Assembly: GCF_000373485.1 (NCBI RefSeq) | Contig: NZ_KB891592.1 | Span: forward strand, 1 to 64,000 | DNA length: 64,000 bases | Direction: 5' to 3' | From: Dasania marina DSM 21967 | GTDB taxonomy: Bacteria > Pseudomonadota > Gammaproteobacteria > Pseudomonadales > Dasaniaceae | Part shown: positions 441 to 26,469 of the stretch, in pieces | How the letters are laid out: each line of letters starts with the position of its first letter | Position numbering within the stretch: the stretch's first letter is position 1 | Position numbers and translations under genes: made by a program | The notes under the pieces: generated by a model | What the model was told of the DNA's origin: nothing | Databases searched by the model: none | What the model saw: the letters and a program-made list of their open reading frames with translations, nothing else

Positions 441-917
441 TCAGTCATTAGAAATATTTGTCAAGATTGTTCTCAGTGCTTTGTTTACGTTCTTAACTTC
501 GCTGATGGTTAGCCCTTCATAAGCAGAGTCGTATAATTTTGAGGTGTCCTTAATAGCAGATTCAATTATGGCAGTGCCTTCTTCAGTTATGGCAACGATT
601 GAAACCCTGCCATCACCTTCAGAGGGCCTTATCGTAACAAGTCCTTGGTCCCGCATTTTATACACCAGTTTTGTGATCGTTGGCATTCGAGCACCTGCAT
701 GAGTTGTGATTTCGGTTACGCTTAATGATCCATGTATATGAAGAATCATGCCTACTCGCCAGCCAGTAATATTCAATCCAACCTTTTTAAGCTTTTTTTC
801 CATTTGCTGTGTGTAGCGATTGCTCAACTGCATCAACCAATAGAAGGGGGATTGGCTATAGTCGAAATCTTTACTAGCCGGTTTATAGGTACTATGTTGT
901 TTAGATTTTCTCTTCAT
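441..917 (-). CDS. iacR: MarR-family transcriptional regulator, probable IAA-responsive repressor IacR
   Basis: This 158-residue protein has the size and layout of MarR repressors: helical N-terminal dimerisation part, a central winged helix around residues 60-110 (ITGWRVGMIL..LSVTEIT, then MPTITKLVYKMRDQGLV and the wing with EGDGR), and a C-terminal helix. MarR-type IacR regulators control iac clusters in other proteobacteria and respond to IAA or an IAA-derived ligand. The gene is divergent from the catabolic run, with 249 bp between its start and the amidase gene, which is the normal arrangement for a repressor that also controls itself. The product assignment as MarR is firm; the name iacR is inferred from the neighbourhood. 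Confidence 0.85.
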   Translation of the reverse strand: MKRKSKQHSTYKPASKDFDYSQSPFYWLMQLSNRYTQQMEKKLKKVGLNITGWRVGMILHIHGSLSVTEITTHAGARMPTITKLVYKMRDQGLVTIRPSEGDGRVSIVAITEEGTAIIESAIKDTSKLYDSAYEGLTISEVKNVNKALRTILTNISND

Positions 918-1104
918 TATGGATCTTAAATTGACGGTTAGATTTAGTGGTTGATGTGCTGGTCAGCTGGTGTTGGGTTATGATTTTAGCAAGTTTAAGC
1001 TAAGAAATCCTTATAACGTAGGCGAATAACACCAAGCGGATAAGCTATGTTGATGCCGTCTGTAACCAGTGAATATAAATAGATGGATCCCCTTATATTA
1101 TTAC

Positions 1105-1121
1105 TTTACTTTTCAAGTGAA
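1105..1121. promoter_or_regulatory. candidate MarR operator (imperfect palindrome)
   Basis: The iacR-iacH intergenic region contains the inverted repeat TTTACTT-TTC-AAGTGAA, with six of seven positions paired. It lies about 45 bp upstream of the amidase start. MarR dimers bind short palindromes in such divergent regions, so this is a candidate IacR site. The region is AT-rich, so a chance palindrome is quite possible. Confidence 0.3.
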
Positions 1122-1166
1122 ATATATCAGTATTCTTCTTGTGAGTAAGTAATGGGTTTAGTGTAA

Positions 1167-2276
1167 ATGGTAGTTTTCATAGATAAATTTTGTCTAGGCG
1201 GTCCTGGGCCTAGGGTGGCTATTAAGGACTCTATTGATGTTGAGGGGAGGGTCACTACGTGCGGTAGTGCGGCTTATGAGCATCATCCAGCGGCTAGTCA
1301 ACATGCCGAAGTGGTCGCTAATGTGATAGAGGCTGGAGGTGAGCTTGTTGGCAAGACCACTATGCATGAGCTTGCCTTTGGTATGAGTGGTGTCAATGCG
1401 TGGGCAGGTACACCGACTAATACGCACTACCCGGAGTATATACCCGGTGGATCATCAAGTGGGTCGGCAGTGGCCGTTGCGAATGGCGATGCGGACTTCT
1501 CTATAGGGACTGATACCGGGGGGTCGATTCGAGTACCTGCGGCGTGCTGTGGTGTTTATGGCTTCAAACCGACATTTGGTCGGGTGAGTCGTAAAGGTGT
1601 GATGCCAAAAGAAAGCGAATTAGATTGTGTCGGGCCCATGGCTGCTAGCGCAGGCATGATCATTACTGCAATGAGAATGATGGATCCCAGTTTTATCAAG
1701 GTTTCAGGGTTGAAGGTGTTTAAATTGGGCTTAGTCAAAGCCGATGTTGATGCCGGAGTCAAATCAGTCTTTGAGCAGGCAATAGCAAAACTTAATTTTG
1801 AATTGGAATGTGTTGAGTTGCCATTAATGAGCGCGGCTTACGAGGCGGCCTTATCATTGATAAATGCCGAGGCCTGGAATGCTTATGGTGGTTTATTAAA
1901 TACAGGCAGTATAGGTAATGATGTCAGTGCACGTTTGCTGGCGGCAAAGAACGTAACAAGTGAAGAGTTAGACGCGGCAAAACAAATAAGAAGTTCGTTT
2001 GACGAAGATGTGAATAGTGCGTTCAGAAATGTCGACTTCTTGATAATGCCAACACTGCCCAGTTTTCCGTTGAAGCTCGATGATGCGATAAGCGGAGCAG
2101 TTGATTTAAATATTAGCAGGCTTGTTAGGCCTTTTAACTTGTCAGGCCATCCCGCAATAACAATACCTATACAGCGTTCTGGTGGTCATCCGGTGTCTAT
2201 ACAACTTATAGCAAAAAAATGGAATGACGAAGAATTGTGTGAAGCAGCCAAAATAATAGATGGTGTCATTAACTAA
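1167..2276 (+). CDS. iacH: amidase-signature hydrolase, IacH-like
   Basis: The 369-residue product carries the amidase-signature Ser-cisSer-Lys triad: Lys20 in VAIKDS, the cis-serine loop GGSSSGSA at residues 94-101, and the nucleophile Ser120 in GTDTGGSIR. Family members cleave amides such as indole-3-acetamide; iacH is a regular accessory gene of IAA-degradation clusters, although its exact substrate there is not settled. The protein is short at the N-terminus: the catalytic Lys is at position 20, against roughly position 70-80 in GatA. No in-frame start further upstream is available, because the preceding ATG runs into TAA at once. It is the first gene of the plus-strand run and ends 44 bp before the iacA start. 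It could supply IAA from the amide or act on a pathway amide. Confidence 0.8.
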   Translation: MVVFIDKFCLGGPGPRVAIKDSIDVEGRVTTCGSAAYEHHPAASQHAEVVANVIEAGGELVGKTTMHELAFGMSGVNAWAGTPTNTHYPEYIPGGSSSGSAVAVANGDADFSIGTDTGGSIRVPAACCGVYGFKPTFGRVSRKGVMPKESELDCVGPMAASAGMIITAMRMMDPSFIKVSGLKVFKLGLVKADVDAGVKSVFEQAIAKLNFELECVELPLMSAAYEAALSLINAEAWNAYGGLLNTGSIGNDVSARLLAAKNVTSEELDAAKQIRSSFDEDVNSAFRNVDFLIMPTLPSFPLKLDDAISGAVDLNISRLVRPFNLSGHPAITIPIQRSGGHPVSIQLIAKKWNDEELCEAAKIIDGVIN

Positions 2277-2320
2277 TCAATTGTACTGGCTACATGGTTT
2301 TACTAATAAAGAGAGAAAAA

Positions 2321-3469
2321 ATGTCAATAGCAATATTAGATAAATCAAAATGGGGTGGTAGCGAGCAATTCGATAATTTGCTGAGTGATATACGGGTGCG
2401 CCGTAATGAATTTGATGAACAGCGTTATATTTCTCATGATGTTGTCGAAAAGTTTAAGAGAATCGGTATTTATCGTGCCTTTGCCCCTGAGCAATTTGGC
2501 GGTGATAACAAAACCCCCGCTGAGTTTTTGCAAGCGATAGAGGCCATCTCGGCAGCAGATGGTTCTTCAGGTTGGGTTGCCAGTTTTGGCATGAACCCTG
2601 CCTACTTAGCCGCCTTGCCCTTGGGAACGATTGAGAAGGTGTGGAAGGATAGTCCAGATGTTGTTTTTGCAGGTGGGATATTTCCTCCGCAACCGGCAAA
2701 GAAAGTTGATGGTGGGTTTATTATTAATGGCCGTTGGCAGTTTGCCAGTGGTTGTATGGGGGCCACAGTACTGGGTGTGGGTATTTTACCTGATGTCGAG
2801 GGTGGCTTACCTCGCATGGCCGTACTGCAACCTGACCAAGTTGAAATTGAAAAGACTTGGAATGTACATGGCATGGTTGCTACCGGTAGCTTTGACCTAG
2901 TGGTGAAAGATGTATTTGTGCCAGAAGAGTGGACCTTCGTGAGGGGGGCTGCGCCAGTTTTAGATTCCCCCTTTTTTCGTTATCCATCAATTGCTTTTGC
3001 TTCGCAGGTTTTATCAGTAACAACGTTGGGGCTTGCCAGAGAGGCCCTGGATATTATTGTGGCAATGTCAGAAGTCCGTAAGTCAGTAACGGGGGCTCCG
3101 TTAATAGGTGATCGCGTCTATGCGCAAATTGAAATGGCAAAGGCAGAGGCTAAGCTTCGATCATCCAGAGCTTTCTTTTACGAAGCAACGGAGGATGCTT
3201 GGGCTGCGGTTACTGCAGGGGGTAAGCCCACTCCTCAACAAACTAGCATGATTCGTTTGGCAACAACAAATTTAACCCGTGAATGTGCGGAGGTTGTTCA
3301 AACCGCCTATAGATTGGCTGGGATGACAAGTACTTATTATGATCATCCGTTATCACGCATTTTTCGAGATTCGCAAATGGCAACTCAGCACGCTTTTATG
3401 GGTGAGATAACCTACCAAAATGCGGGATCCATGCTGTTTGGGCATAAACCATTACCTGGTTATTTATAA
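2321..3469 (+). CDS. iacA: acyl-CoA-dehydrogenase-fold flavin monooxygenase, IAA oxygenase IacA
   Basis: This 382-residue protein belongs to the acyl-CoA dehydrogenase fold used by two-component flavin monooxygenases (HpaB/C2, HsaA, IacA): an N-terminal helical domain, a central beta domain (GRWQFASGC, WNVHGMVATGSFD) and a C-terminal helical bundle (YRLAGMTSTYYDHPLSRIFRD). IacA begins IAA attack by hydroxylating the indole ring with reduced flavin supplied by IacG. I start at 2321 rather than the in-frame ATG at 2294 because an AG-rich ribosome site (AGAGAGAAAAA) precedes 2321 and the family N-terminus fits. The following gene is 29 bp away. The matching flavin reductase lies at 8246-9178. 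The family is certain; the IAA role comes from the whole gene set. Confidence 0.88.
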   Translation: MSIAILDKSKWGGSEQFDNLLSDIRVRRNEFDEQRYISHDVVEKFKRIGIYRAFAPEQFGGDNKTPAEFLQAIEAISAADGSSGWVASFGMNPAYLAALPLGTIEKVWKDSPDVVFAGGIFPPQPAKKVDGGFIINGRWQFASGCMGATVLGVGILPDVEGGLPRMAVLQPDQVEIEKTWNVHGMVATGSFDLVVKDVFVPEEWTFVRGAAPVLDSPFFRYPSIAFASQVLSVTTLGLAREALDIIVAMSEVRKSVTGAPLIGDRVYAQIEMAKAEAKLRSSRAFFYEATEDAWAAVTAGGKPTPQQTSMIRLATTNLTRECAEVVQTAYRLAGMTSTYYDHPLSRIFRDSQMATQHAFMGEITYQNAGSMLFGHKPLPGYL

Positions 3470-3498
3470 TTTTAGTTAAACAATTTAGGAGAGCGACA

Positions 3499-3858
3499 AT
3501 GACAGATATAAAAACACATAGAGTTTTATTTTGTATTGGTATTAACCAAAACTTCATGGATGCAAAAAAAGAAGAAATGGGGGATGTTTGGCAGGCATTT
3601 AGCGCTTTAATGAGCGGTATTTCTAATCTTCCCGGCGTGAATGTTTTGGGTGTTATGGATGATGACCGTATTCAAGTTGGGCCATCAGCAGATGCACCCT
3701 GGACAGCGTATATTATGGCTGATGTGCCCGATCTAGAAACCATAATTAGTGCTTGTGATTTCTGCCGTTCAACTCCGGTTGGCGATGGTACTTATAAGTT
3801 ATGGAAGTACTGCAAGATTGAAGCAAGAATTGGTCGCGCTTTAGTCATTGGCGGCTAA
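3499..3858 (+). CDS. iacB: IacB-like small protein of unknown mechanism
   Basis: The 119-residue product begins with a strand HRVLFCIGINQNF and ends KYCKIEARIGRALV. I recognise it as resembling IacB, a small protein found beside iacA in IAA clusters whose biochemical role is not established. It has no signal peptide or membrane segment and looks like a compact cytosolic alpha/beta protein. An AGGAGAG ribosome site stands 7-8 bp before the ATG. It lies between iacA and the SnoaL-like gene, all in the same direction with gaps under 30 bp, so co-transcription is expected. Whether it is an enzyme, a chaperone or a ligand-binding protein cannot be told from the sequence. Confidence 0.75.
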   Translation: MTDIKTHRVLFCIGINQNFMDAKKEEMGDVWQAFSALMSGISNLPGVNVLGVMDDDRIQVGPSADAPWTAYIMADVPDLETIISACDFCRSTPVGDGTYKLWKYCKIEARIGRALVIGG

Positions 3859-3871
3859 AAGGTTAATTATT

Positions 3872-4393
3872 ATGTCTGTGGAAAAAACGATTAACGCTTT
3901 AGAAAAAAGGCTAACCGCACTTGAAAGTGAAAAAGAAGTAAGAGAGTGCATGAACCGATATATGTATCTTTGTGATGATATCGGTATCGATTTCCCATTA
4001 GAAAAGTTAACCCAACTGTTTTCAGAGGGTGCAGTGTGGGAGGGTAAAGGCGGCCGATACTCAAAAAGCTTTGGTCGATGTGAGGGACGAGATGCTATCG
4101 CACAAATGTTCAAAAAATATACCCTGCCACCTGCACACTTTGAATTGAATGTTCATGTGCTAGGCAATGAAGTCATTAATGTTGATGCTGATAGTGCAAC
4201 TGGAAGTTGGGTGTTAGTACAGCCTTCCAGTTTTACCAGCGGAAAATCTCAACTGAGTTGTGCGCGCATAACCGCTAAATTTATAAAGAACAATGAGCGA
4301 TGGCTGATAGATCATTTTCAAACTGAGAGTTTATTCAGTCGCCCCATGTCAGAGCCATGGGATCAGCCGGCACTATTACCTGTTCCAGATTAA
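3872..4393 (+). CDS. iacI: SnoaL-like (NTF2-fold) protein, IacI-like
   Basis: The 173-residue protein has the SnoaL-like pattern: N-terminal helices (EKRLTALESEKEVRECMNRY), an acidic-aromatic segment (LFSEGAVWEG), and alternating strands ending NNERWLIDHFQTES. NTF2-fold proteins of this type include isomerases, dehydratases and non-catalytic partners. IacI of IAA clusters belongs here, and its role is undefined. I use the ATG at 3872, preceded by AAAAGG, not the upstream in-frame TTG at 3848, which overlaps iacB. In many iac clusters iacI lies away from iacC; here it is placed between iacB and iacC. Confidence 0.72.
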   Translation: MSVEKTINALEKRLTALESEKEVRECMNRYMYLCDDIGIDFPLEKLTQLFSEGAVWEGKGGRYSKSFGRCEGRDAIAQMFKKYTLPPAHFELNVHVLGNEVINVDADSATGSWVLVQPSSFTSGKSQLSCARITAKFIKNNERWLIDHFQTESLFSRPMSEPWDQPALLPVPD

Positions 4394-4438: not shown

Positions 4439-5716
4439 ATGAGCGCTGATGTAATTGCAAAATCGACAAAGACCAGTGCCGCTGATTTGGTGCTTGAAGA
4501 TAGAGTGCATAAGTCTCTATATTCTGACCCAGAAATATTTGAGGAAGAGTTAGATAAAGTTTTTAATAATACTTGGGTGTGGGTTGCTCATGAGAGCGAG
4601 ATTGCAGAAGTAGGTTCATACAAAACGGCAAAAATAGGTCGTCAGCCGGTTATTATTTCTCGTGATCGCAAAAAGAATATCCATGTTTTACTCAATCGCT
4701 GTCGTCACCGTGGCGCCACAGTATGTGAAGGAAATCATGGCAAAACTAAGGCTTTTACCTGTCCGTACCATGGTTGGGGTTACTCGTTAGACGGAGAGCT
4801 GCGTGCATTGCCTAAGCCAGAAGAATATGAAGGAATTTTAGATAAATCAAAATATAGTTTGGAAAGCTTACGCTTTGAAACTTATCAGGGAATGATATTT
4901 GCGACCTTCAAAGACGACATTGAGCCTTTAGAAGACTTTTTGGGCGGAGCAAAAAAATGGATAGATTTGTTCATGAAACAGGGGGGCGGCTACCCTGTAC
5001 AAGTATTGGGCACCCATCGTTTCCGTTTTCCTGGTAACTGGAAGATTCAGTTAGAAAATACCACCGACGCTTACCATTTCCCTATTGTTCATAAGTCATT
5101 TATATCGTCTGTCGATGAGGCGACTCAAGAAGTATTTGATTTCTTGGATGGCGAAGGGTTTGTTGAAGATCTGGGTAATGGCCACAGTGTGATGCTGATG
5201 ATTCCTGAGTTAAAAGATTTAGATGAAGCCTTAGATGATCCAATTCCTGATCGCTTTAAAGAATTCGCAGAGTCTTTGAAGGAAGAAGGTTGCAGTGAGG
5301 AAGAAATCAAGCGCATGGTTAAAGCCGTTGGCGGCTGTGGTTTTAATTTAAATCTATTTCCCAATATTGCTTGCTCAATGGCCTTTTTCAGAAACTTGGT
5401 ACCTATTGGCCCAGCAGAAACTGAAATTCACCATATTGCGATTGGCGGCCAAGGCGCTCCAGCTGCTTATAACCAAGAGCGCATGCGTTTGCATGAACAT
5501 TTCCAAGGCCCCATGGGTTTTGGTACGCCCGATGATGGTGAGGCGTGGGAGCGTGTACAAGCTGGTTCTATGGCAGGAACAGACGGTTGGATTATGGTTA
5601 ACCGAGGTATGTCAAAATTGAGAACATCTGAAGATGGTAATGTACAAGGCGCTGTTTGTTCGGAGACAGGCATGCGTGCCGCTTATCAGCAATATAAAAA
5701 ACAGATGTCTATCTAG
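4439..5716 (+). CDS. iacC: Rieske ring-hydroxylating oxygenase large subunit IacC
   Basis: This 425-residue alpha subunit has a Rieske [2Fe-2S] site with ligands Cys88, His90, Cys108 and His111. The catalytic domain carries the mononuclear iron motif around residues 210-218 (NTTDAYHFPIVH), with Asp210 as the bridging acid and His213 and His218 as ligands. In Iac pathways IacC, IacD and the reductase IacF take the oxidised indole-acetate intermediate towards catechol. A strong ribosome site (TTAGGAGGC) precedes the ATG by about 6 bp, suggesting high expression. The beta-subunit gene follows after 14 bp. Family assignment is certain; the substrate is inferred from context. Confidence 0.9.
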   Translation: MSADVIAKSTKTSAADLVLEDRVHKSLYSDPEIFEEELDKVFNNTWVWVAHESEIAEVGSYKTAKIGRQPVIISRDRKKNIHVLLNRCRHRGATVCEGNHGKTKAFTCPYHGWGYSLDGELRALPKPEEYEGILDKSKYSLESLRFETYQGMIFATFKDDIEPLEDFLGGAKKWIDLFMKQGGGYPVQVLGTHRFRFPGNWKIQLENTTDAYHFPIVHKSFISSVDEATQEVFDFLDGEGFVEDLGNGHSVMLMIPELKDLDEALDDPIPDRFKEFAESLKEEGCSEEEIKRMVKAVGGCGFNLNLFPNIACSMAFFRNLVPIGPAETEIHHIAIGGQGAPAAYNQERMRLHEHFQGPMGFGTPDDGEAWERVQAGSMAGTDGWIMVNRGMSKLRTSEDGNVQGAVCSETGMRAAYQQYKKQMSI

Positions 5717-5730: not shown

Positions 5731-6213
5731 ATGAATATTGATAGCCAACTAATTACAGAAGTCACTCATTTTATTAATCAAGAGTCAGATATGCTTGATT
5801 ACAAAGAGTACGCAGATTGGTTAAAACTTTGGTCTGAAACGGGGTTGTATATAGTGCCGGTTGATCACAGTAATACTGATTATAAAAATTCGCTGAATAT
5901 AGCCTACGACGATGCAGAAATGCGCGTTATGCGTACGGATAGATTACTAAGTGGAGAAGCTGTTTCTACACAATATGCTGAAAAGACTGTTAGAACTCTG
6001 TCTCGAATTCGGGTTGTTGGTGAAGAGGATGGCTTGATAAATGTACGTTGTGCTTATTGTTTGTATGAACATAAGAAAGGAAAAATTAGAAGCTTTCCAG
6101 CCAATGTTGAATTCAAGTTACGTCGCTTGGATGATTCATTTTTGATTGAGCAAAAAGTTATTAATATATTGCTGTCAGATCAGCATCTTAAAACAGTCAG
6201 CTATATATTTTAG
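5731..6213 (+). CDS. iacD: ring-hydroxylating oxygenase small subunit IacD
   Basis: The 160-residue product matches beta subunits of Rieske oxygenases in length and pattern: an NTF2-like fold starting INQESDMLDYKEYADWLKLW, then MRVMRTDRLLSGEAVS and a C-terminal SDQHLKTVSYIF strand. These subunits are structural partners in alpha3beta3 oxygenases. It follows the alpha-subunit gene by 14 bp and its stop touches the ribosome site of the next gene, which is typical of tight operons. Confidence 0.85.
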   Translation: MNIDSQLITEVTHFINQESDMLDYKEYADWLKLWSETGLYIVPVDHSNTDYKNSLNIAYDDAEMRVMRTDRLLSGEAVSTQYAEKTVRTLSRIRVVGEEDGLINVRCAYCLYEHKKGKIRSFPANVEFKLRRLDDSFLIEQKVINILLSDQHLKTVSYIF

Positions 6214-6221: not shown

Positions 6222-6965
6222 ATGTCGGAAGTTGTTTTGATAACAGGGGCTGGGCAAGGGTTAGGATTTGCTATCGCTCAAGGTTTTTATGATGCGGGCT
6301 ATAGTGTGGTATTGACTGATGTTGATGAGAATCTTGTCGCTGAGGCTGCAAAGTCAATTGACGACAGTCGCAGTCGCGCTATAGGATTTAAGCTAGATGT
6401 GCTAAAAAAAGATGACTTTCAACAAGCCCTAGATTTTGTAATTGACCGTTTTGGGCGCTGCGATGTGCTTGTTAATAATGCTGCGATGACGCCAACAACA
6501 CCAGTTTTAGATATAACTGCGGAAGAGTTTGATGCGGTAATGAGCGTTAATCTCCGTGGTACATTATTTGGTTGCCAGGTGTTTGCTAAGCACTTTTCAG
6601 AAAATGGTTTTGGTCGAATTATTAATATGGCTTCATTGGCAGGTCAAATGGGTGGCACAGCATCGGGCGCTCATTATGCTGCATCGAAAGCTGGCATAAT
6701 GACTTTAACAAAAGTGTTCGCTCGTCAGTTTGCTGATCAGGGCGTTACGGTAAATGCCGTTGCTCCAGGTCCAGTGGATGTGCCTTCGGTAAGAGATAAG
6801 GTACCAGCTGAAAAGCTTGAACATATAATCAATACCATGATCCCAGTTAAAGCGATGAGTAGCCCGGGATTAATTGCCAGTATGGTCGTTATGTTGGCGA
6901 GTGAGCAGTCTAGTACCGTGACCGGAGCTTGTTGGGATGCCAATGGTGGAATTTATATGCGCTGA
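6222..6965 (+). CDS. iacE: short-chain dehydrogenase/reductase IacE
   Basis: This 247-residue SDR has the NAD(P)-binding TGAGQGLG near the N-terminus, the NNAA structural motif, a catalytic Ser in NMASLAG and the YAASK Tyr-Lys pair. IacE proteins act on the product of IacA in IAA degradation. I use the ATG at 6222 with AGAGG just upstream (6212-6216) rather than the GTG at 6216. No segment suggests membrane attachment. The position between the oxygenase beta subunit and the reductase gene matches iac gene order in other bacteria. Confidence 0.85.
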   Translation: MSEVVLITGAGQGLGFAIAQGFYDAGYSVVLTDVDENLVAEAAKSIDDSRSRAIGFKLDVLKKDDFQQALDFVIDRFGRCDVLVNNAAMTPTTPVLDITAEEFDAVMSVNLRGTLFGCQVFAKHFSENGFGRIINMASLAGQMGGTASGAHYAASKAGIMTLTKVFARQFADQGVTVNAVAPGPVDVPSVRDKVPAEKLEHIINTMIPVKAMSSPGLIASMVVMLASEQSSTVTGACWDANGGIYMR

Positions 6966-7007: not shown

Positions 7008-7964
7008 ATGACGATTAAATTAATTGATGTTGTGATTACTGCTAGGGAAGACCAAGGAGCGGGCATTGCCGTTTTTGAACTTGCGAGACCATCAGGGGAT
7101 GAGCTGCCGAGGTTTGATGCGGGCGCTCATATCGATGTGCATATAGGCGACAATTTTATTAGGCAGTATTCTCTGAGTGGCAATTCAGAAAATAAAAACA
7201 GTTACCGTCTAGGTGTTTTAAATGATCCTAATTCTCGAGGTGGTTCTGTAAAGCTTTATCAAGAGTTTAAAAAAGGTCAATTAATAAAAATAAGTGAACC
7301 AAGAAATCACTTTCCTCTAGATGCTGATGCCAAAAAAACAATTTTGGCTGGCGGCGGTATTGGTATTACACCGATGATTTCGATGGCTTATACCTTAAAG
7401 TCACAGGGTAAACCCTTTGAACTTCATTATTGTACGCGTTCAAAAGGCGCAGGTGCTTTTGAGCGGGAGCTATTACAGCAGTTTCCAGAGCAAGTTATTT
7501 TCCATTATGACGACGATGGAGGTGAGCAATTATTCTCGCCAGAAAAACTGTTTCTTCCTTATGATGCCGATTTACATATTTACGTGTGTGGTCCAACCGG
7601 TTTCATGGACTGGGTTATAAATAATGCAAAATCATTTAATTATCCATCGGAGCAGATTCACTTCGAATATTTTAGTGCTGATGTCGATGTCACAGGTGAT
7701 GCGTTTGAAGTTTACTGTGCAGTCAGCGACATCACTGTTTCTGTCGGTGAGGAAGATACGATTGTTAAAGCGCTAGCTGCAGCAGGAGTGAAAGTCGATG
7801 TTTCTTGTGAAGAAGGTGTTTGTGGTACCTGTATTACTGACGTTTTAGAGGGTGAACCGGACCATCGAGATCATTTTTTAACGGAAGAGGAAAGAAGCGA
7901 TAACGATCAAATGGCGTTGTGTTGCTCTAGGGCGAAATCGAAGCGCCTAGTTATTGATCTTTAA
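7008..7964 (+). CDS. iacF: oxygenase reductase IacF (FMN/NAD domain plus plant-type ferredoxin)
   Basis: The 318-residue protein has the phthalate-dioxygenase-reductase layout: a flavin-binding barrel with RQYSLSG (about residues 45-55), an NAD-binding domain with AGGGIGITPM, and a C-terminal [2Fe-2S] ferredoxin domain with CEEGVCGTC plus a distal Cys in MALCC. It passes electrons from NADH to the Rieske oxygenase IacCD in the cytoplasm. It follows iacE by 42 bp and is followed by the tautomerase gene. The function as oxygenase reductase is firm. Confidence 0.9.
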   Translation: MTIKLIDVVITAREDQGAGIAVFELARPSGDELPRFDAGAHIDVHIGDNFIRQYSLSGNSENKNSYRLGVLNDPNSRGGSVKLYQEFKKGQLIKISEPRNHFPLDADAKKTILAGGGIGITPMISMAYTLKSQGKPFELHYCTRSKGAGAFERELLQQFPEQVIFHYDDDGGEQLFSPEKLFLPYDADLHIYVCGPTGFMDWVINNAKSFNYPSEQIHFEYFSADVDVTGDAFEVYCAVSDITVSVGEEDTIVKALAAAGVKVDVSCEEGVCGTCITDVLEGEPDHRDHFLTEEERSDNDQMALCCSRAKSKRLVIDL

Positions 7965-13278: not shown

Positions 13279-13569
13279 ATGTTGTTTAAAGTAGAAATGG
13301 AAGTGATTGTTCCTCATGATGTGGACCCTGAAATTTTTGAATCGATAAAAAGTAAAGAAAAAGAATATGCCAGTGAATTGCAGTCTAAGGGCGTATGGAG
13401 GCATCTCTGGAGGGTGGCAGGAGAATATAAAAATATCAGTATTTTTGATGTTGATAGCAATCAGGCGTTACATGATACGTTAATGGGGCTACCTTTGTAC
13501 CCCTATATGAATGTTGAGGTAACTCCTCTGTGTCGCCACCCATCATCAATTCATAACGATGATAGGTAG
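13279..13569 (+). CDS. catC: muconolactone delta-isomerase
   Basis: The 96-residue product matches CatC throughout: FKVEMEVIVPHDVDP at the start, KEKEYASELQSKGVWRHLWRV in the middle, and LPLYPYMNVEVTPLCRHPSS at the end. It converts muconolactone to 3-oxoadipate enol-lactone. A good TTGGAGG ribosome site precedes the ATG and the gene lies 28 bp after catB. Confidence 0.93.
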   Translation: MLFKVEMEVIVPHDVDPEIFESIKSKEKEYASELQSKGVWRHLWRVAGEYKNISIFDVDSNQALHDTLMGLPLYPYMNVEVTPLCRHPSSIHNDDR

Positions 13570-19429: not shown

Positions 19430-20851
19430 ATGAAAAAATTCAATATGACTATCAACGGTCAGCAAATTATTTCAGACAGTTATTTTGATGTCATTAATCC
19501 GGCAACTGAACAGGTCTTTGCGCAGTGCGCAAAAGGAAGTGCAGATGATGTGGATCGCGCGGTGGACGCTGCTAGCGAGGCATTTAAAAGTTGGAGCGTG
19601 ATGGCTGACGCTGATCGTAAGGCAGCACTACATGCCGTGGCAAGTTTGCTTGAAACCAATATGCCCGAATTAATGGAGTTGATTGTACAGGAGACTGGTA
19701 AGCCAATGCTGGGTTTGAATCAGGTTGGTGCGGGTATGGAAGTTGGCGGTGCTGCAGCTTGGGCGCACGTTAATGCCGATATCGATTTACCGGTTGAAGT
19801 GATTCAGGACAATGAAGATGCTCGGATAGAGTTGCATCGTAAGCCGTTAGGGGTGGTGGCGTCTATTACACCTTGGAACTGGCCTTTGTTGATTGCTATT
19901 TGGCATATTATTCCCGCGATGCGTGCCGGCAACACGGTGGTGCTTAAGCCTTCACCCTTAACGCCAGTTACGACTGCGCGTTTTGTGGAGTTGGCCAATA
20001 CGGTATTGCCGCCGGGAGTGCTAAACTTGGTGTCAGGTGATGGCGACGTGGGTGCGGCAATGACCGCCCATGAAGGTATTGCCAAAGTTGTCTTTACCGG
20101 CTCTACCGATACTGGTAAGCAAATTATGAAAGCGGCATCTGGCAACTTAAAGCGGCTGACGTTGGAGCTAGGCGGTAATGATGCAGGCATCGTCTTAGAC
20201 GATGTTGATCCTATTGCTATAGCCCCTAAATTGATTGGTGCTTGCTTTCACAACAATGGCCAGACTTGCGCGGCATTAAAGCGGCTCTATGTTCATGAAA
20301 GTATGTACGAGTCTGTCTGCTCTGAAATGGCTAGGTTAGCCAGTGGCTTGGTGGTAGGTAATGGCTTGGCGGAAGGCACTGAGCTTGGCCCCGTTCAAAA
20401 CCAAATGCAGTTGGAGATTGTAGAATCATTGGCTGAATCGGCGAGAACCGAGGGTGGCCGCTTCCTGTGTGGTGGTAAGAGGCGCGAAGGTAAAGGCTAT
20501 TTCTATGAGCCTACTATCGTCGCAGATTTGGTTGATGGCAATCGACTGGTTGATGAAGAGCCTTTTGGGCCAATTGTCCCGGTGATTAAATACAGTGACA
20601 TCGATGAGGTTATTAAGCAGGCTAATAGCAGCCCTAATGGCTTGGGTGGTTCTGTTTGGTCAACCGATACTGCCCGTGCAGTTGAAATTGGTAAACGTCT
20701 TGAGACGGGCACAGTATGGATTAACGATCATGGCGCAGTGCAACCCGATATGCCATTCGGAGGTGTTAAACAGTCAGGTTTTGGGGTGGAGTTTGGATTA
20801 CATGGTCTACAGGAATTTACCTCCATCCAATCCGTTAAAATTGCTAAATAA
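19430..20851 (+). CDS. NAD(P)-dependent aldehyde dehydrogenase, probable aryl-acetaldehyde dehydrogenase
   Basis: The 473-residue protein has the aldehyde dehydrogenase catalytic pair Glu246 (LELGGNDAG) and Cys280 (NNGQTCAALKR), the ITPWNWPL nucleotide-binding loop and the C-terminal PFGGVKQSGFGVEFG motif. Directly upstream of a TTQ amine dehydrogenase, its expected substrate is the aldehyde released by that enzyme, for example indole-3-acetaldehyde going to IAA. The amine dehydrogenase acts in the periplasm and this protein lacks a signal peptide, so the aldehyde must cross the inner membrane. Substrate is inferred from context alone. Confidence 0.87.
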   Translation: MKKFNMTINGQQIISDSYFDVINPATEQVFAQCAKGSADDVDRAVDAASEAFKSWSVMADADRKAALHAVASLLETNMPELMELIVQETGKPMLGLNQVGAGMEVGGAAAWAHVNADIDLPVEVIQDNEDARIELHRKPLGVVASITPWNWPLLIAIWHIIPAMRAGNTVVLKPSPLTPVTTARFVELANTVLPPGVLNLVSGDGDVGAAMTAHEGIAKVVFTGSTDTGKQIMKAASGNLKRLTLELGGNDAGIVLDDVDPIAIAPKLIGACFHNNGQTCAALKRLYVHESMYESVCSEMARLASGLVVGNGLAEGTELGPVQNQMQLEIVESLAESARTEGGRFLCGGKRREGKGYFYEPTIVADLVDGNRLVDEEPFGPIVPVIKYSDIDEVIKQANSSPNGLGGSVWSTDTARAVEIGKRLETGTVWINDHGAVQPDMPFGGVKQSGFGVEFGLHGLQEFTSIQSVKIAK

Positions 20852-20893: not shown

Positions 20894-22201
20894 ATGAAAT
20901 TTGAAACTGTGAAAAAGCTGGTGCTGGTTAGCGCAGTGCTAACGGTTCTTTGGAGCTGCTCAAAAGATGAATCTTTAGTTGCTACCACAGAACAAGCTCC
21001 AGCCGACGCTAAAGTGGAAGCAAAGCCCAAAGGGCCTGCTATAACTGGCGCAGATTCTCTGGCGCCCCATGAAAAACCTCAAATATTGGCGGATAGCACC
21101 AGGCCGCCGCTGCCTATTGAAGAGACGGGTAATGTTGCTAGATTACCTCGCAGCTACCCTGAACATTGGGTGATGGTAAGAGAGGTTAACTTTTTCAACC
21201 ATCTTTCCGGTAAAGTTATCGTGCTTGATGTGGCTGAGACCAAGCCGCAAAAGCGTATTAAGGGAATGATGGACAGTAGTTTGCTGGGTAATTTTGGGCA
21301 ATCGAAAACCCGCGGTGAACTTTATATATTAGAGTCCTTCCACGAGCGGGGAACCCGTGGGCCCAGAACGGATGTGTTAGTGATTTATGATAAAGAGACG
21401 CTTTCGATTAAAAAAGAAATTGTTTGGTTACAGCCCAACCGTATTATGGCGTTACCTGAGCGTTATTCGATTTCACTCTCTAAGGATGAAAAATTTCTAT
21501 TTGCTGCCAATTTTAGCCCAGCGGCGTCGTTTACTGTTGTGGATTTGGATAAGCAGGAAATCGTCACCGAGATTGGAACTCCCGGTTGTGTGCTGACCTA
21601 TCCCGTCGGTCAGCGTACTGTTGCTTCGCTTTGTAGTAATGGTGGCATGTTAAGTACAACGGTGAATGAAGATGGTACATTGAAATCTCAAAAGCGTCTT
21701 AAACCGTTCTTTGATACCGATAAAACACCCATTTTTGAGCATGGCGTATTCTTCAATGGTCAAGCTTTTTACCCTAGTTTCACCGGTTTATTACATGGTT
21801 TTGATGTTAGTGGCGAAGAGGTGAAATACTTGGGTAGCAGTAGTCTGGTTTCAGAGGATGAGCAAGAAAAAAACTGGCGTCCTGGTGGCTTGTTCCTTAA
21901 CGATGTCGATGATACTGGTTTAATGTATACCATTTTTCAGCCTGATGGCCATGAAGGCACCCAGACCCATGGTGGCACAGAAGTTTGGGTACATGACTTA
22001 AAAACGAAGCAGCGTGTTCGTCGAATTGAGGTGCCTAACTGGGCAGTTTCTTTGGTGGTGACACGGGGTGAAAATCCACTTTTAGTGGTCACTAATGGTG
22101 AAATGAATCTGGATATTTTTAATGCCAATGATGGTTCATTTATTCACACGGTGTCTGACTTTGGCAATGTCACACCATTGGCCTTAGAGAAGTCTTACTG
22201 A
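20894..22201 (+). CDS. aauB: TTQ amine dehydrogenase heavy chain (aralkylamine type)
   Basis: The 435-residue protein matches heavy (alpha) chains of methylamine/aromatic amine dehydrogenase, seven-bladed beta-propellers. Repeated blade strands are visible (VMVREVNFFNHLSGKVIVLD, YSISLSKDEKFLFAANFSP, WRPGGLFLNDVDDTGLMY). Characteristic segments are EVWVHDLKTKQRVRRIE and GTQTHGGTEVW near the C-terminus. The N-terminus is a signal peptide ending L-W-S-C at Cys22, followed by a linker rich in Ala, Lys and Pro, so the chain may be a lipoprotein, unlike the soluble classical enzymes. Heavy and light chains form a periplasmic alpha2beta2 enzyme that deaminates primary amines. The aromatic-amine assignment rests on the aau-like gene order and the IAA genes next door. 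Confidence 0.85.
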   Translation: MKFETVKKLVLVSAVLTVLWSCSKDESLVATTEQAPADAKVEAKPKGPAITGADSLAPHEKPQILADSTRPPLPIEETGNVARLPRSYPEHWVMVREVNFFNHLSGKVIVLDVAETKPQKRIKGMMDSSLLGNFGQSKTRGELYILESFHERGTRGPRTDVLVIYDKETLSIKKEIVWLQPNRIMALPERYSISLSKDEKFLFAANFSPAASFTVVDLDKQEIVTEIGTPGCVLTYPVGQRTVASLCSNGGMLSTTVNEDGTLKSQKRLKPFFDTDKTPIFEHGVFFNGQAFYPSFTGLLHGFDVSGEEVKYLGSSSLVSEDEQEKNWRPGGLFLNDVDDTGLMYTIFQPDGHEGTQTHGGTEVWVHDLKTKQRVRRIEVPNWAVSLVVTRGENPLLVVTNGEMNLDIFNANDGSFIHTVSDFGNVTPLALEKSY

Positions 22202-22214: not shown

Positions 22215-22760
22215 ATGGAACTATTATCTGCAATGAGTAATTCCGTCGCCGTGTTTATGCTCTGGCTGTTTGTTACGGCGGGTATCAGCAAACTAATGCC
22301 GGCTAACCGGGATTATTATATCGAAGTGATGGCCGGTTACGGTCTTGTATTGCCTGAGTTAGCTAAAACATTGCCAGTGTTGGTTGGCTTGGCTGAAATT
22401 GTTACCGGGGTGCTAACATTAATCCCGCATACTCGTCTGTTTGGTGTGATGGCATCTGTGTCCATTTTGTTAATTTATTTTGGCGTGATGGCGAACAAAG
22501 TTCTAGCTGGCGAAAAAAATATACGTTGTGGTTGCTCCGGACCTGGCGTCAATATGAACGTCAGCCCGGTGTTATTGGTTCGTAATGCTGTGTTAATCGC
22601 CTTGCTTATTTTTTCAGGTATGAATATTTATAGCGTAGATGTAGATGCAGGCTTGTGGCTTGTGTCAATAATATTTGCGCTTATTTTTATTATTGTTAGT
22701 TTGAGTACGGAACAGCTAATCATTAATGAACAAAAAATAAAAGTGCTTAAAGCGCTTTAA
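22215..22760 (+). CDS. aauE: MauE/DoxX-like membrane protein for amine dehydrogenase maturation
   Basis: This 181-residue membrane protein has about four to five hydrophobic helices and the family features LFVTAGISKLMPA in helix 1, GLAEIVTGVLTLIP in helix 2 and a cytoplasmic-side IRCGCSGPG cysteine pair. MauE/AauE proteins are needed with MauD for export-coupled folding of the disulfide-rich light chain. The gene starts 13 bp after the heavy chain and lies in the conserved order B-E-D-A. Confidence 0.87.
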   Translation: MELLSAMSNSVAVFMLWLFVTAGISKLMPANRDYYIEVMAGYGLVLPELAKTLPVLVGLAEIVTGVLTLIPHTRLFGVMASVSILLIYFGVMANKVLAGEKNIRCGCSGPGVNMNVSPVLLVRNAVLIALLIFSGMNIYSVDVDAGLWLVSIIFALIFIIVSLSTEQLIINEQKIKVLKAL

Positions 22761-22775
22761 ATTGAGGATGTGGTT

Positions 22776-23378
22776 GTGGATGTATTAGTCGTTTCTAATA
22801 TTTTGTTGTGGGTTGCTGTGGTGATTATGGCAGCGGTCATATATGCCTTAACCCGGCAGATCGGCGTGCTTTATGAGCGAGTTGCCCCCGCCGGAGCTTT
22901 GGCGATGAACAAGAACATAGACGTAGGGCAGGATGCGCCAGAATTGTCGTTACCAACGATCAACTCTAAGTTGGTCACTGTTGGAGGTAAATCTGCTGAT
23001 GGAAAATCTCAGCTATTGTTTTTTGCGTCGCCCGATTGCCCCGTGTGTAAAACACTGATGCCGGCGTTGAAATCGGCAGCCAAGCATGAAGCCGATTGGG
23101 TTAATTTAATTATTGGTAGTGATGGGAAAAATCAAGATCATAAGCGTTATGTTAAAGAACAAGGGCTAGAGCCTTACCCCTATATCGTTTCTGAGTTATT
23201 AGGAAAAACCTACGGCGTGGCGAAACTACCTTATGCGGTGATTATCGACGAGCAGGGTAAGGTGGCGTCTATGGGTATAGTCAATTCTCGAGAGCATATC
23301 GATAGCCTTTTTGAAGCCAAAGAAAGAAAAGTCGCTTCAATTCAAGATTACATGAGCAATAAAAATCAGCAATATTAA
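22776..23378 (+). CDS. aauD: MauD-like thioredoxin-fold maturation protein
   Basis: The product (200 residues from the GTG at 22776, which has GAGG 8 bp upstream; a GTG at 22770 is also possible) has one N-terminal membrane anchor and a periplasmic thioredoxin-like domain with the redox pair CPVC in FFASPDCPVCKTLM and a cis-Pro region KLPYAVI. MauD assists formation or rearrangement of the light-chain disulfides. It precedes the light-chain gene by 24 bp. Confidence 0.88.
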   Translation: MDVLVVSNILLWVAVVIMAAVIYALTRQIGVLYERVAPAGALAMNKNIDVGQDAPELSLPTINSKLVTVGGKSADGKSQLLFFASPDCPVCKTLMPALKSAAKHEADWVNLIIGSDGKNQDHKRYVKEQGLEPYPYIVSELLGKTYGVAKLPYAVIIDEQGKVASMGIVNSREHIDSLFEAKERKVASIQDYMSNKNQQY

Positions 23379-23402: not shown

Positions 23403-23918
23403 ATGAAATTTCTTGATCGTTTTTTTGAAAAGTCTGCACGCAGTGTTGCTCAGAGGAGCTCTAGAAGAGGCTTGTTGAAGACGCTTGGTACCGGTTTGGT
23501 TGGTGCAGCATCGATTCCTCTATTGCCAGTAGCACGGGCTTCAGATGGTGCTCCGAAACAACCAGTGGATGAGGGTGATCCAACCAGTTGTGACTATTGG
23601 CGTTATTGTGCAGTCGATGGTTTTTTGTGTGAATGTTGCGGTGGGACTTATAATACCTGCCCTCCGGGCACAGAGATGTCACCCATTACTTGGATTGGCA
23701 CGTGTCGCAACCCGGTAGATGGCCGTAATTATGTCATTTCCTACAATGATTGTTGTGGTACAACACAGTGTGGTAGCTGCCTGTGTCAACGAGATGAAGG
23801 GGATAGGCCGCTGTATCGATCGGACAAGTCTAACGACATTAATTGGTGTTTGGGTTCCAGTAGTAGTGTTTATCATTGCTCTACTGCTGTGGTGGTTGGA
23901 GTGGCTTTCGAACAATGA
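23403..23918 (+). CDS. aauA: TTQ amine dehydrogenase light chain (aralkylamine type)
   Basis: This 171-residue chain carries the cofactor. A Tat-type leader (SSRRGLLK) runs to about residue 47. The two tryptophans that become tryptophan tryptophylquinone are Trp97 (ITWIGTC) and Trp148 (INWCLG), 51 residues apart as in methylamine dehydrogenase Trp57/Trp108. Asp72 (AVDG) and Asp116 (YNDCC) sit at the positions of its Asp32 and Asp76. The chain has 14 cysteines against 12 in classical MADH light chains; the two extra are in LCECC and TTQC. Its TGA overlaps the ATG of the cytochrome gene. Amine specificity (tryptamine, phenylethylamine or tyramine) cannot be read directly. Confidence 0.92.
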   Translation: MKFLDRFFEKSARSVAQRSSRRGLLKTLGTGLVGAASIPLLPVARASDGAPKQPVDEGDPTSCDYWRYCAVDGFLCECCGGTYNTCPPGTEMSPITWIGTCRNPVDGRNYVISYNDCCGTTQCGSCLCQRDEGDRPLYRSDKSNDINWCLGSSSSVYHCSTAVVVGVAFEQ

Positions 23919-24337
23919 AATGCTTGCTAGTGTTAGCAGTAGCCGTTATTGGGTCGACGCATATTTTTGCGCTTGAGGTGAATGAGCCGCGAGCTAAATT
24001 CAACTATCAAATGTTTTGCCAAGGCTGTCATGTTGGTGATGGTTCTGGACATAAAGGCGTGCCTGAAATCAAAGATTTCATTGGTAACTTTTTGACTTTT
24101 CAGGAGGGGAGAGAGTATTTGATCCGTGTGCCGGGATCAGCAAACTCTGCGCTTGATAGCTATCAATTAGCTGAGTTAATGAATTGGATGATTGTGACTT
24201 ATGGTGGTAGTAGCGTGCCTGAGAAATGGGCTGTTTATACTACAGAAGAGGTCGAAAAATATAGGCAAGAACCTCTTTATGAAGTTATTGATTATAGGAA
24301 GAAGTTGGTCGATTTTATATCGGAAAATAATAAGTAA
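23915..24337 (+). CDS. small periplasmic monoheme cytochrome c
   Basis: From the ATG at 23915, overlapping the light-chain stop, the 140-residue product has a signal peptide ending near IFA-LEV and a single heme site CQGCH, with a distal Met-containing helix (LAELMNWMIV). A small monoheme cytochrome also follows the light-chain gene in the aau cluster of Alcaligenes faecalis. It probably takes electrons from the amine dehydrogenase, or passes them on. The longer reading from 23876 starts inside the light-chain gene and is rejected. Confidence 0.85.
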   Translation: MKCLLVLAVAVIGSTHIFALEVNEPRAKFNYQMFCQGCHVGDGSGHKGVPEIKDFIGNFLTFQEGREYLIRVPGSANSALDSYQLAELMNWMIVTYGGSSVPEKWAVYTTEEVEKYRQEPLYEVIDYRKKLVDFISENNK

Positions 24338-24909
24338 TGGTACGAGTTATGAAAATAAATAAGTTGTTGGTTATGGTGTTGACCGTTTTGTTAATGGCGA
24401 TAAGTGGCTCAGTAATAGCCAGTGAAAATATCGATAAAGCGGTAAAGGCTTGTGCTGCATGTCATGGCGCTAATGGAGTGTCTAATAATGGCCAGTGGCC
24501 GAATCTGGCTGGTCAAAAAGAGCAATATTTAATTAGCCAAATCAATGCGTTCCGTAACGGTAGCAGAAGTGATGCCTTGATGAACGCAAGTGTTCAGGGC
24601 TTGTCAGATAAACAAGTCGCTGCGATTGCCCGATATTTTTCCTCGCTAAAGAGAGAGCAGAATGTCCCGGGTGACCTTGCTCTAGAGGGTCTCAATGTAC
24701 GAGCCCGTTGTGTTTCATGCCATGGTATGAAAGGCCGTACGGTTAACACTGAATGGCCCAATTTAGCGGGTCAGAAGTATGAGTACGTTAAAAAACAGTT
24801 AATGGACTTTAAGTCGGGAGCTCGTAAAAGCCCCATTATGGAAGTGATTGCCAATGAACTAAATGATGAGCAGATTGCAGCCGTAGCCGATCACTATAGT
24901 AAATTATAA
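24337..24909 (+). CDS. diheme cytochrome c4-like protein
   Basis: The 190-residue precursor has a signal peptide ending near SVIA-SEN and two similar cytochrome c domains with heme sites CAACH and CVSCH. Each is followed by the c4-type sequence WPNLAGQK, and distal methionines lie in DALMNASV and SPIMEVI. Its ATG overlaps the preceding TAA by one base (TAATG). An in-frame ATG at 24349 is possible. A c4 cytochrome would carry electrons to a terminal oxidase. It is not MauG-like: MauG is longer and belongs to the diheme peroxidase family. Confidence 0.87.
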   Translation: MVRVMKINKLLVMVLTVLLMAISGSVIASENIDKAVKACAACHGANGVSNNGQWPNLAGQKEQYLISQINAFRNGSRSDALMNASVQGLSDKQVAAIARYFSSLKREQNVPGDLALEGLNVRARCVSCHGMKGRTVNTEWPNLAGQKYEYVKKQLMDFKSGARKSPIMEVIANELNDEQIAAVADHYSKL

Positions 24910-24947
24910 TTGTCCATATCTTTTTTACCCTTTCTAGGTCGCCCCAG

Positions 24948-24968
24948 CCCCCGCTTTGTGGGGGATTT
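24948..24968 (+). terminator. likely terminator after the amine dehydrogenase block
   Basis: CCCCCGC pairs with GTGGGGG (one G-U pair) around a TTT loop and is followed by ATTTTC. The stem is short and the T-tract weak, but the location 40 bp after the last cytochrome gene fits the end of the transcript. Confidence 0.55.
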
Positions 24969-25506
24969 TCGTGAGATTACCGCTGGCTAATCAGCACCTA
25001 TGTAGTCTACTCTAACTTTATGTTTGCTGTTTTTCCCGCTCGTCGTGAGAGTTTTCCTGGGGTTGGCCGAGGGTGATGATTGGGTGTGCATTATAGTTAA
25101 GGCACAAGCGCCTAAGCCACTACGTCCTATAATTCCCAAACTTTGTTAGAGATAGTGTCCGTTAAATCGGGGAAGATTTAATGTTGGCTTATAAGGATTT
25201 GTTATAAACCATGGCTATGGTTTAGTTGATTATTCAAGTAACTGCCAGTATGCTTGATCATTTTTAAGGCGTTTGATTCAGGTTTACGGTAATAAATATT
25301 AATTCTATTGGTAGATTTGAGTGAGTCTTTTAAGGGGGAATGTTCTTCAGCTCTGTTTTTCTTGTGAGCTGATTTCCTCTGGCGCTAAGCTGTATATGAG
25401 AGGGGAAGCTATCAAGTTGTCGAACGTTATGGTTTTACCTAACGAGGATTGAGGCCTAGCCTTTGTTTTTTTTATTATCAAGACAGTATGTTTCAGGGGC
25501 GTTTTT
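24969..25506 (+). other. 538-bp intergenic region upstream of the AraC-type regulator
   Basis: No gene with a plausible ribosome site is visible here. The region is AT-rich near 25240-25320 and probably holds the regulator's own promoter. I found no strong palindrome or tandem repeat. Confidence 0.5.
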
Positions 25507-26469
25507 ATGCAGATGAGATCCACTGCGCTGATTTGTGAGAAGTTCCAGGGTGATACAGCTATAGAGCAGCTGGGGCAAATGGCGTCAGAGACTTTTTGCC
25601 CGCTGAGTTGTTGGGCTAACAATTCAAATTATTCTGGCTATTTCAACCAAGGGTGTTTGGATAGAGTTACATTGTCCGATGTTGGCGGTAGCGCCCTTGA
25701 GGTTGATAGAAGAAAGCAGCATATATCCCAGGTTGCAGATAGTTATTATTTGGTGAAATTTCAATTACATGGTATGTCTAAGCTTCAGCATATGGGGCGG
25801 GAATCTATTTTACATCCAGGGGACTTTATCCTTTGTAATAGCTCTGAGCCCTACAGGCTTAGCTTCAAAGATAATTATCGCCAAACTGTGATGGCCATAC
25901 CTCAGGCACAATTAAATACGCTAGTAACCGATGTTGAAGACAGTGTGGGGTATACAATGTCTGGTGATAGCCCTGTTAACGGTATGTTAAGCCAGTTTGT
26001 TTCATCGTTGATGGAAAACTACAATACCATTCCACCTGATAGCTTTCGCCGCCTAGAAGCTAACGCTTTAGACCTATTGGTGACTTCGCTAGAGGCTAGT
26101 AAAGCTCTGGGCTCTAAAGAGAAGCGGTCGGTAAAGGATGATCATTTCATGCGTATTAAGCAGTTTATTTTTTTACATTTATCGGACTCGCGATTATCGC
26201 CTGATTTTATTGCAGATATTGAAGGTATCAGTACACGTTATTTACATATGTTGTTTAAGTCGGAGGGTGTTTCTATTTCACGTTACATCCAATATCTGCG
26301 TCTTGAGGCTTGTGCTAAGAAGTTATCTGATCCTCAATATAATCGTGCATCAGTATTAGAAATTGCTCTTGATCAGGGCTTTAATGATGTATCGAGTTTT
26401 TACCGATCCTTTAGAAATCACTTCGGTATCACCCCTAAGCAATACCGTGTAAAAACACTTAATAGCTAA
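25507..26469 (+). CDS. AraC-family transcriptional activator
   Basis: The 320-residue protein has an N-terminal cupin-like ligand-binding part (HGMSKLQHMGRESILHPGDFILCNSSEPY, the pattern of FeaR/AraC_binding_2-type regulators) and a C-terminal double helix-turn-helix (DFIADIEGISTRYLHMLFKSEG, then SVLEIALDQGFNDVSSFYRSFRNHFGITPKQYR). FeaR-like proteins activate aromatic amine oxidation genes. Standing at the end of the amine dehydrogenase block, this is a good candidate for its activator. A second ATG at 25513 is possible. Confidence 0.85.
   Translation: MQMRSTALICEKFQGDTAIEQLGQMASETFCPLSCWANNSNYSGYFNQGCLDRVTLSDVGGSALEVDRRKQHISQVADSYYLVKFQLHGMSKLQHMGRESILHPGDFILCNSSEPYRLSFKDNYRQTVMAIPQAQLNTLVTDVEDSVGYTMSGDSPVNGMLSQFVSSLMENYNTIPPDSFRRLEANALDLLVTSLEASKALGSKEKRSVKDDHFMRIKQFIFLHLSDSRLSPDFIADIEGISTRYLHMLFKSEGVSISRYIQYLRLEACAKKLSDPQYNRASVLEIALDQGFNDVSSFYRSFRNHFGITPKQYRVKTLNS

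Follow-up and report, generated by a model that had tools for sequence, protein, structure and literature searches.

The iac genes of Pseudomonas putida 1290 belong to an island of approximately 30 kb, which also carries genes assigned to the use of methylamine, phenylacetaldehyde and opines, and upstream of which lie catR-catBCA and genes for an OprD-like protein, an MFS transporter and a chemoreceptor (PMC6624763). According to further reports, catechol genes follow the iac genes in Enterobacter soli LF7 and Pseudomonas sp. LY1 (PMC8383072), and an iac island possesses its own outer-membrane porin and ABC transporter (PMC3390384). Here, we describe a related locus of Dasania marina DSM 21967 (genome of 4.1 Mb), contained in a window of 64,000 nucleotides that starts at base 1 of contig NZ_KB891592.1 (C18). 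A block at positions 441-26469 of this window unites a tryptophan tryptophylquinone (TTQ) amine dehydrogenase module with a module of iac and cat genes. We assign a probability of roughly 60% to the interpretation that the block is an acquired catabolic island joining the two modules in the manner proposed below.

The content of the block was established from its open reading frames (ORFs) and from protein family searches (NCBIfam, Pfam). A divergent MarR-family gene (iacR, minus strand) is followed by 25 plus-strand genes (1167-26469). The order is iacR, iacH-A-B-I-C-D-E-F, a tautomerase gene, iacG, pcaF, a fused pcaIJ, catB, catC, catA and catD, and then the genes for an MFS transporter, a TonB-dependent receptor, an aldehyde dehydrogenase, the heavy chain of an aralkylamine dehydrogenase (AADH), MauE, MauD, the AADH light chain, two cytochromes c (the first monohaem, the second dihaem) and an AraC regulator of FeaR type. 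The preliminary description of this DNA had counted 24 plus-strand genes; the correct number is 25, or 26 with the unlisted tautomerase gene (8023-8214; PF01361, 66 bits). The gene content, order and strands that it gave were borne out, as was its claim of a complete route, a candidate gene being found for every step from an arylethylamine through indole-3-acetate (IAA) and catechol to 3-oxoadipate. Because the window begins at the contig end, the left side of the block is invisible beyond base 1.

The block is most likely a complete and plausible island leading from amines through catechol to central metabolism, with arylethylamines as substrates and tryptamine feeding the iac pathway. Homology establishes what the genes are, whereas the substrate, the flux and the regulation are our inference. 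In the first module (17014-26469), the TonB-dependent receptor would take up a ligand, putatively as an amine importer. The TTQ aralkylamine dehydrogenase would then oxidize arylethylamines (tryptamine, probably also phenylethylamine) to arylacetaldehydes and pass the electrons to the two cytochromes c, the aldehyde dehydrogenase would yield arylacetates, and the FeaR-like protein is the likely activator of the module. The second module (441-15303, probably together with the MFS gene) would turn IAA into catechol by means of the iac products under the control of IacR, and CatA, CatB, CatC, CatD, PcaIJ and PcaF would complete the conversion of catechol to succinyl-CoA and acetyl-CoA.

The heavy chain of the amine dehydrogenase is, judged by sequence comparison with solved enzymes, clearly of the aralkylamine type (171 bits with AADH, 85 bits with methylamine dehydrogenase, MADH). 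The light chain scored 163 bits with AADH, 156 bits with the MADH 3c75 (over a longer aligned stretch) and at most 130 bits with other MADHs. The assignment to the TTQ aromatic amine dehydrogenases made in the preliminary description is therefore upheld by the heavy chain, which is far nearer AADH than MADH, and only slightly favoured by the light chain. The latter retains both TTQ tryptophans, the cysteines and the aspartate of the SYxDCCG motif, and genes for MauD and MauE are present. The residue preceding the second TTQ tryptophan is Asn, as in AADH, whereas it is Ile in the MADH shown. The solved AADH (PDB 2agl and others, which we take to be from Alcaligenes faecalis) thus resembles the Dasania enzyme in having both subunits, the tryptophans, the aspartate and this Asn; it differs by Thr-to-Ser and Phe-to-Tyr changes in Dasania near the second tryptophan, and by the lipoprotein-like N-terminus of the Dasania heavy chain. 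The roles of these Thr and Phe positions, like those of the TTQ tryptophans and the presumably catalytic aspartate, are assumed here. The heavy-chain N-terminus (20894-20960) resembles a lipoprotein signal (LWSC, by eye); similar lipobox-like ends were seen in Vibrio galatheae, Photobacterium ganghwense, Aliiglaciecola lipolytica and Pseudomaricurvus alcaniphilus, and ordinary-looking signals in other relatives.

It is very improbable that the enzyme acts on methylamine, the substrate named in the publication on P. putida 1290, or on short aliphatic amines and has nothing to do with indoles. This could be argued from the names of the matching NCBIfam families (methylamine dehydrogenase), from the methylamine use listed for the P. 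putida island (PMC6624763) and from the close AADH and MADH scores of the light chain, but the scores fall short of the curated MADH cut-offs (109 of 454 and 158 of 197 bits), and AADH is by a wide margin the nearer relative of the heavy chain, on which grounds the reading was set aside as unlikely. An AADH would be expected to oxidize aromatic primary amines, and the enzyme is most likely a general arylethylamine oxidase, with the iac and cat genes as its indole outlet.

That outlet comprises homologues of iacA, B, C, D, E, F, G, H and I with a MarR-type regulator, in the same order as in iac clusters; we assigned the names iacA-iacI from similarity, collinearity and NCBIfam or Pfam classes, the matches shown including no iac-named model. 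Such a set is predicted to convert IAA into catechol. In a tree of 27 IacA sequences, the Dasania protein groups (support 100/97) with those of genome G390, Paraglaciecola arctica and A. lipolytica, and in these three a homologue of the tautomerase immediately precedes iacG (83-84% identity). None was detected, at E 1e-2, in five other loci containing iacF and iacG (G191, G037, G590, G676 and G679). In the four marine clusters, the tautomerase that precedes iacG may contribute to the steps that lead from the oxindole intermediate to catechol. IacG itself (8246-9178) belongs to the HPAH-C1 type and has a C-terminal extension that may sense a ligand; in four Pseudomonas loci with an IacG match, the match was confined to the flavin-reductase part, within residues 7-157.

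The genes for ortho-cleavage of catechol were also identified: the thiolase, the CoA-transferase, CatB, CatC and CatD score above the curated cut-offs, and CatA below its own. The CoA-transferase is one fused protein, with residues 23-236 matching the subunit A model and residues 260-463 the subunit B model (numbered along the ORF starting at 10457). The catA gene of the block is the sole copy found in the genome (E 1e-30). At the same threshold, G390 and P. arctica (G402), both of which carry iac genes, have no CatA homologue, so catechol may take another route in them. The iac cluster of A. lipolytica (L193, 4540-8419) is adjoined by an AraC-family gene (AndR-like, below the cut-off) and by genes for a pyrroloquinoline quinone (PQQ)-dependent alcohol dehydrogenase (669 bits, cut-off 480) and an aldehyde dehydrogenase; these two dehydrogenases could provide an entry from tryptophol to IAA.

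The arrangement found in Dasania is not new, since the P. putida 1290 island and clusters of iac and catechol genes have already been published. The preliminary description knew of no such combination with its own outer-membrane receptor; a claim of novelty does not hold, as “methylamine” and “phenylacetaldehyde” genes are part of the P. putida 1290 island and catBCA lies close to it (PMC6624763). In the genome taken as this strain (G676), CatB and CatA (over the cut-off), iac and AADH are encoded at approximately 2.716-2.751 Mb, together with a FeaR (372 bits, cut-off 199) situated between iac and AADH; an aldehyde dehydrogenase resembling StyD (378 bits, under the cut-off) is encoded there as well. 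Over approximately 35 kb, P. putida 1290 therefore has the following in common with Dasania: catB, catA, iac, FeaR, TTQ amine dehydrogenase genes and a gene for a StyD-like aldehyde dehydrogenase. It differs in that an OprD-like protein replaces the TonB receptor, the gene order is not the same, and the amine genes have been read as serving methylamine use. Its light chain is 55% identical to that of Dasania, and the match of its aldehyde dehydrogenase ORF (418 amino acids) to the StyD model, which has 483 positions, is confined to positions 5-363. In G676, the full cluster is adjoined by a further, incomplete set of iacC, iacD and iacF (L202, 967-3693), which is already on record (PMC6624763).

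The clusters of E. soli LF7 and Pseudomonas sp. LY1 share the HABICDEFG order and adjoining catechol genes with Dasania, and the term “amine dehydrogenase” is absent from the main text of the paper on them (PMC8383072). A Marinomonas cluster (PMC11373566) has the order iacABICDEFG and a marine host, as in Dasania, but contains transporter genes, its cat genes are located elsewhere, and Table 1 of that report includes no amine dehydrogenase. Tryptamine goes unmentioned in the text of PMC6624763. Among the matches listed from a search of open-access literature (titles and beginnings of abstracts, hence no proof of absence), no paper joined iac with TTQ, aromatic or aralkylamine dehydrogenase, and a reading of these genes as one tryptamine pathway was not found in the literature examined. 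The island is an ordinary type of catabolic assembly carrying an unremarked, testable link.

This link recurs in other bacteria. Proximity of iacA and the light-chain gene (within 30 kb), which the preliminary description proposed as a check, was found in 25 of the 61 IacA-bearing genomes among 298 searched from the genus of G191, taken as Pseudomonas. The light chain was present in 49 of the 298 (one a weak fragment) and both proteins in 37 (odds ratio 29 and p 7e-21 by Fisher's test, uncorrected for kinship); besides the 25 close pairs, the genes were 150-164 kb apart in 3 genomes and on different contigs in 9. A similar pairing occurs in many Pseudomonas, among them apparently the strain that yielded the first auxin-degrading genes. 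Outside Pseudomonas, the same check succeeded for Dasania and for P. arctica (25 kb between the amine module and iacA), and failed for most carriers of a close light chain, as detailed below.

In a quick tree of 79 chosen light-chain sequences, with many open forks, the Dasania sequence falls within a marine clade of 22 rows (97% support in the SH-like approximate likelihood ratio test, SH-aLRT). A separate clade of 35 rows (99%) unites all 23 iac-linked Pseudomonas rows with most of those that are unlinked, and also includes 4 rows from two further families; P. arctica adjoins A. lipolytica. The label “linked” or “unlinked” requires at least 8 changes on this tree, where gain and loss are not distinguished and some “unlinked” rows may reflect broken assemblies; we read the pairing as having more than one origin. 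The recurrence of a TTQ amine dehydrogenase beside iac supports the tryptamine-to-IAA route. Plasmids were also considered as carriers of a joint cluster: among 72,556 records, 42 encode IacA (E 1e-60) and 30 the light chain (E 1e-20). This candidate was rejected, since among the 20 matches listed for each protein, 4 records are common to both lists and have the genes more than 300 kb apart by their coordinates.

Among the best 80 of 582 light-chain relatives in named genomes, the order TonB receptor, aldehyde dehydrogenase, heavy chain, MauE, MauD, light chain and cytochromes recurs, whole or in part, across marine gammaproteobacteria. The loci of Colwellia, P. alcaniphilus, P. arctica and A. 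lipolytica (the last without the aldehyde dehydrogenase, which is missing from its 14 kb locus with the AADH operon) share this order with Dasania; they differ from it in the absence of iacA and iacC from the flanks searched (up to 10 kb on each side). The TonB receptor is 64-70% identical in Colwellia, P. arctica, A. lipolytica and P. alcaniphilus and approximately 34% identical in the Dasania sister described below; in other genomes the identity is lower or the gene is located elsewhere. The suggestion that this receptor is special to the combination was not borne out. As similar receptors recur beside the same marine amine genes, mostly without iac, we prefer to regard it as a component of the amine module. 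The iac-adjacent aldehyde dehydrogenase of A. lipolytica shares 79% identity with its counterpart in the P. arctica amine module.

The block looks acquired, because its G+C content at third codon positions (GC3) is low and it is absent beside the same flank in the sister. The latter, G099, was taken as Dasania sp. GY-MA-18 (light-chain contig NZ_JANHAP010000007.1) and is the only congener among the 10 genomes of the family that were searched. Four blocks of the window between 26773 and 39565 are colinear with sister contig C9, at 76-86% identity of the nucleotides. Beyond the helicase gene, the adjoining 9.8 kb of this contig gave no nucleotide match to the window and no match to any protein of the block; the sole iac-named match in the locus is a 28% identical SDR (short-chain dehydrogenase/reductase) on the opposite side. 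No IacA (E 1e-60) and no CatA (E 1e-30) were detected in the sister, which carries the feaR-TonB-aldehyde dehydrogenase-AADH-cytochromes set on a different contig. GC3 is 0.37 for 14 island genes and 0.51 for 13 flank genes (Mann-Whitney p 5e-5, mainly longer genes chosen). The block is thus missing from the same place in the sister and is of odd composition; this comparison covers the right edge and one sister, where loss or rearrangement is also possible. A possible mobile element at the contig end gave an rve_3 match of 25.1 bits, below the cut-off of 26.5.

Several observations weigh against a joint tryptamine pathway. Of the 80 genomes with the closest light chains, 50 were searched for IacA and only 3 encode it, a rate near that of a sample of the order (19 of 390), though above that of the class-wide sample (2 of 369: the genome of the window and G073, too few for a test). 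In the order sample, 44 genomes encode the TTQ light chain and 4 encode both proteins (G000, G094, G170 and G191), within 30 kb in two of them (the window and G191). These counts therefore show no general bond of the marine amine module to iac. The iac and light-chain genes are on different contigs in G390 and A. lipolytica, and these two genomes and P. arctica, having been reached through the light chain, provide no independent test. The association in Pseudomonas is partly due to shared descent. The light-chain scores for AADH and for the best MADH barely differ, and the heavy chain of the Pseudomonas relative G191 separates the two less (172 versus 143 bits). A search of eight intergenic regions for a shared operator gave nothing beyond chance: the best pair, from the regions preceding catB and feaR, was reached by 9 of 100 shuffles and was dropped. 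Finally, among 22 hand-picked genomes with the TTQ light chain, 10 of them with iac, PaaA is encoded in 18, including D. marina and its sister; 6 of these 18 also have iac.

Some of these observations would fit an amine module that is a general phenylethylamine or tyramine system with phenylacetate degradation as its outlet, placed beside iac and cat only by gathering on one island. We regard this as unlikely, though well short of negligible. On the favoured reading, too, phenylethylamine is as possible a substrate as tryptamine, because the host genome also encodes PaaA, and phenylacetate, if made, would enter the paa pathway elsewhere in the genome. The 47 of 50 genomes without IacA, the wide occurrence of PaaA, the sister with the module and neither iacA nor catA, and the FeaR-like regulator (FeaR being known from phenylethylamine use) all point in this direction. 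They are opposed by the co-occurrence with iac and proximity to it in Pseudomonas, the separate cases in Dasania and Paraglaciecola, the iac-adjacent aldehyde dehydrogenase of A. lipolytica, and the fact that each of the 4 genomes of the 22 lacking PaaA (G191, G679, P. arctica and A. lipolytica) carries iac. It is also quite improbable that iac and cat serve free algal auxin, independently of the amine genes. Two separate regulators (MarR and FeaR-like), the outcome of the operator search and the lack of IacA in most module-bearing genomes would fit such independence, but one module is expected to yield just what the other consumes, and the evidence in favour of a joint amine-to-catechol island applies here as well.

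Features of the Dasania marina block and its left edge (positions within the window; percentages are identities)
Feature	Position	Strand	Evidence
Probable decayed IS3-type transposase (integrase core) remnant, contig edge	1..440	+	rve_3 E=1.5e-5, 25.1 bits, just under cut-off 26.5
iacR, MarR-family regulator	441..917	-	PF01047; 38-55% to iac-adjacent MarR genes (G258, G390, P. arctica, A. lipolytica)
iacH, amidase family	1167..2276	+	48-54% to iacH of G191, G258, G390, P. arctica, A. lipolytica
iacA, flavin-dependent monooxygenase (putatively IAA to 2-oxo-IAA)	2294..3469	+	75% to G390; 40-71% to other matches
iacB, no assigned biochemical role	3499..3858	+	77-81% to iacB of G390, P. arctica, A. 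lipolytica; no Pfam match
iacI, SnoaL-like	3872..4393	+	PF13577; start = first ATG of TTG ORF 3848
iacC, Rieske dioxygenase alpha subunit	4439..5716	+	77-82% to marine iacC
iacD, dioxygenase beta subunit	5731..6213	+	Family match and iac homologues
iacE, SDR	6222..6965	+	Family match and iac homologues; start = ATG within GTG ORF 6216
iacF, ferredoxin reductase	7008..7964	+	Family match and iac homologues
4-Oxalocrotonate tautomerase (4-OT)-like tautomerase, 63 amino acids	8023..8214	+	PF01361, 66 bits; 83-84% homologues in G390, P. arctica, A. lipolytica
iacG, flavin reductase, HPAH-C1-type C-terminal extension	8246..9178	+	NF045919 257 bits (cut-off 340); PF01613
pcaF/catF, 3-oxoadipyl-CoA thiolase	9306..10514	+	691 bits, cut-off 605
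pcaIJ, fused 3-oxoadipate CoA-transferase	10511..11869	+	Family match above curated cut-off; start = ATG within TTG ORF 10457
catB, muconate cycloisomerase	12111..13250	+	503 bits, cut-off 335
catC, muconolactone isomerase	13279..13569	+	142 bits, cut-off 131
catA, catechol 1,2-dioxygenase	13614..14495	+	364 bits, under cut-off 392, best match by 200 bits
catD, 3-oxoadipate enol-lactonase	14500..15303	+	290 bits, cut-off 256
MFS transporter, Bcr/CflA family	15619..16824	+	42% homologue adjoins iacG in G258
TonB-dependent receptor of amine module	17014..19308	+	Pfam match; homologues in marine amine loci
Aldehyde dehydrogenase (putatively arylacetaldehyde to arylacetate)	19430..20851	+	Aminobutyraldehyde 428 bits, StyD 419 bits, both under cut-offs
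AADH heavy chain	20894..22201	+	AADH 171 bits, MADH 85 bits
mauE-like	22215..22760	+	PF07291
mauD-like	22770..23378	+	TIGR02661, 189.7 bits, cut-off 188.6
AADH light chain with TTQ	23403..23918	+	Family and structure-sequence matches
Monohaem cytochrome c-like, one CxxCH	23915..24337	+	No Pfam match; start = ATG within TTG ORF 23876
Dihaem cytochrome c, two CxxCH	24337..24909	+	Family match
feaR-like AraC regulator	25507..26469	+	NF007243 161 bits, below cut-off 199

To conclude, the chances seem to us about even that the mineralization of tryptamine via auxin is a recurrent, unnamed bacterial route, in which TTQ amine dehydrogenase and iac genes have been joined independently in Pseudomonas, Dasania and Paraglaciecola, and for which the “methylamine” genes of P. 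putida 1290 provide the tryptamine entry step. The iac clusters are usually taken as a means to use or destroy plant auxin. If the recurrent route is real, IAA would be not only a hormone obtained from plants or algae, but also an intracellular intermediate of amine use. Should many iac clusters represent the lower half of tryptamine catabolism, their distribution and the logic of their inducers would in part need to be re-read, and the genes adjoining iac in the founding strain would change their meaning.

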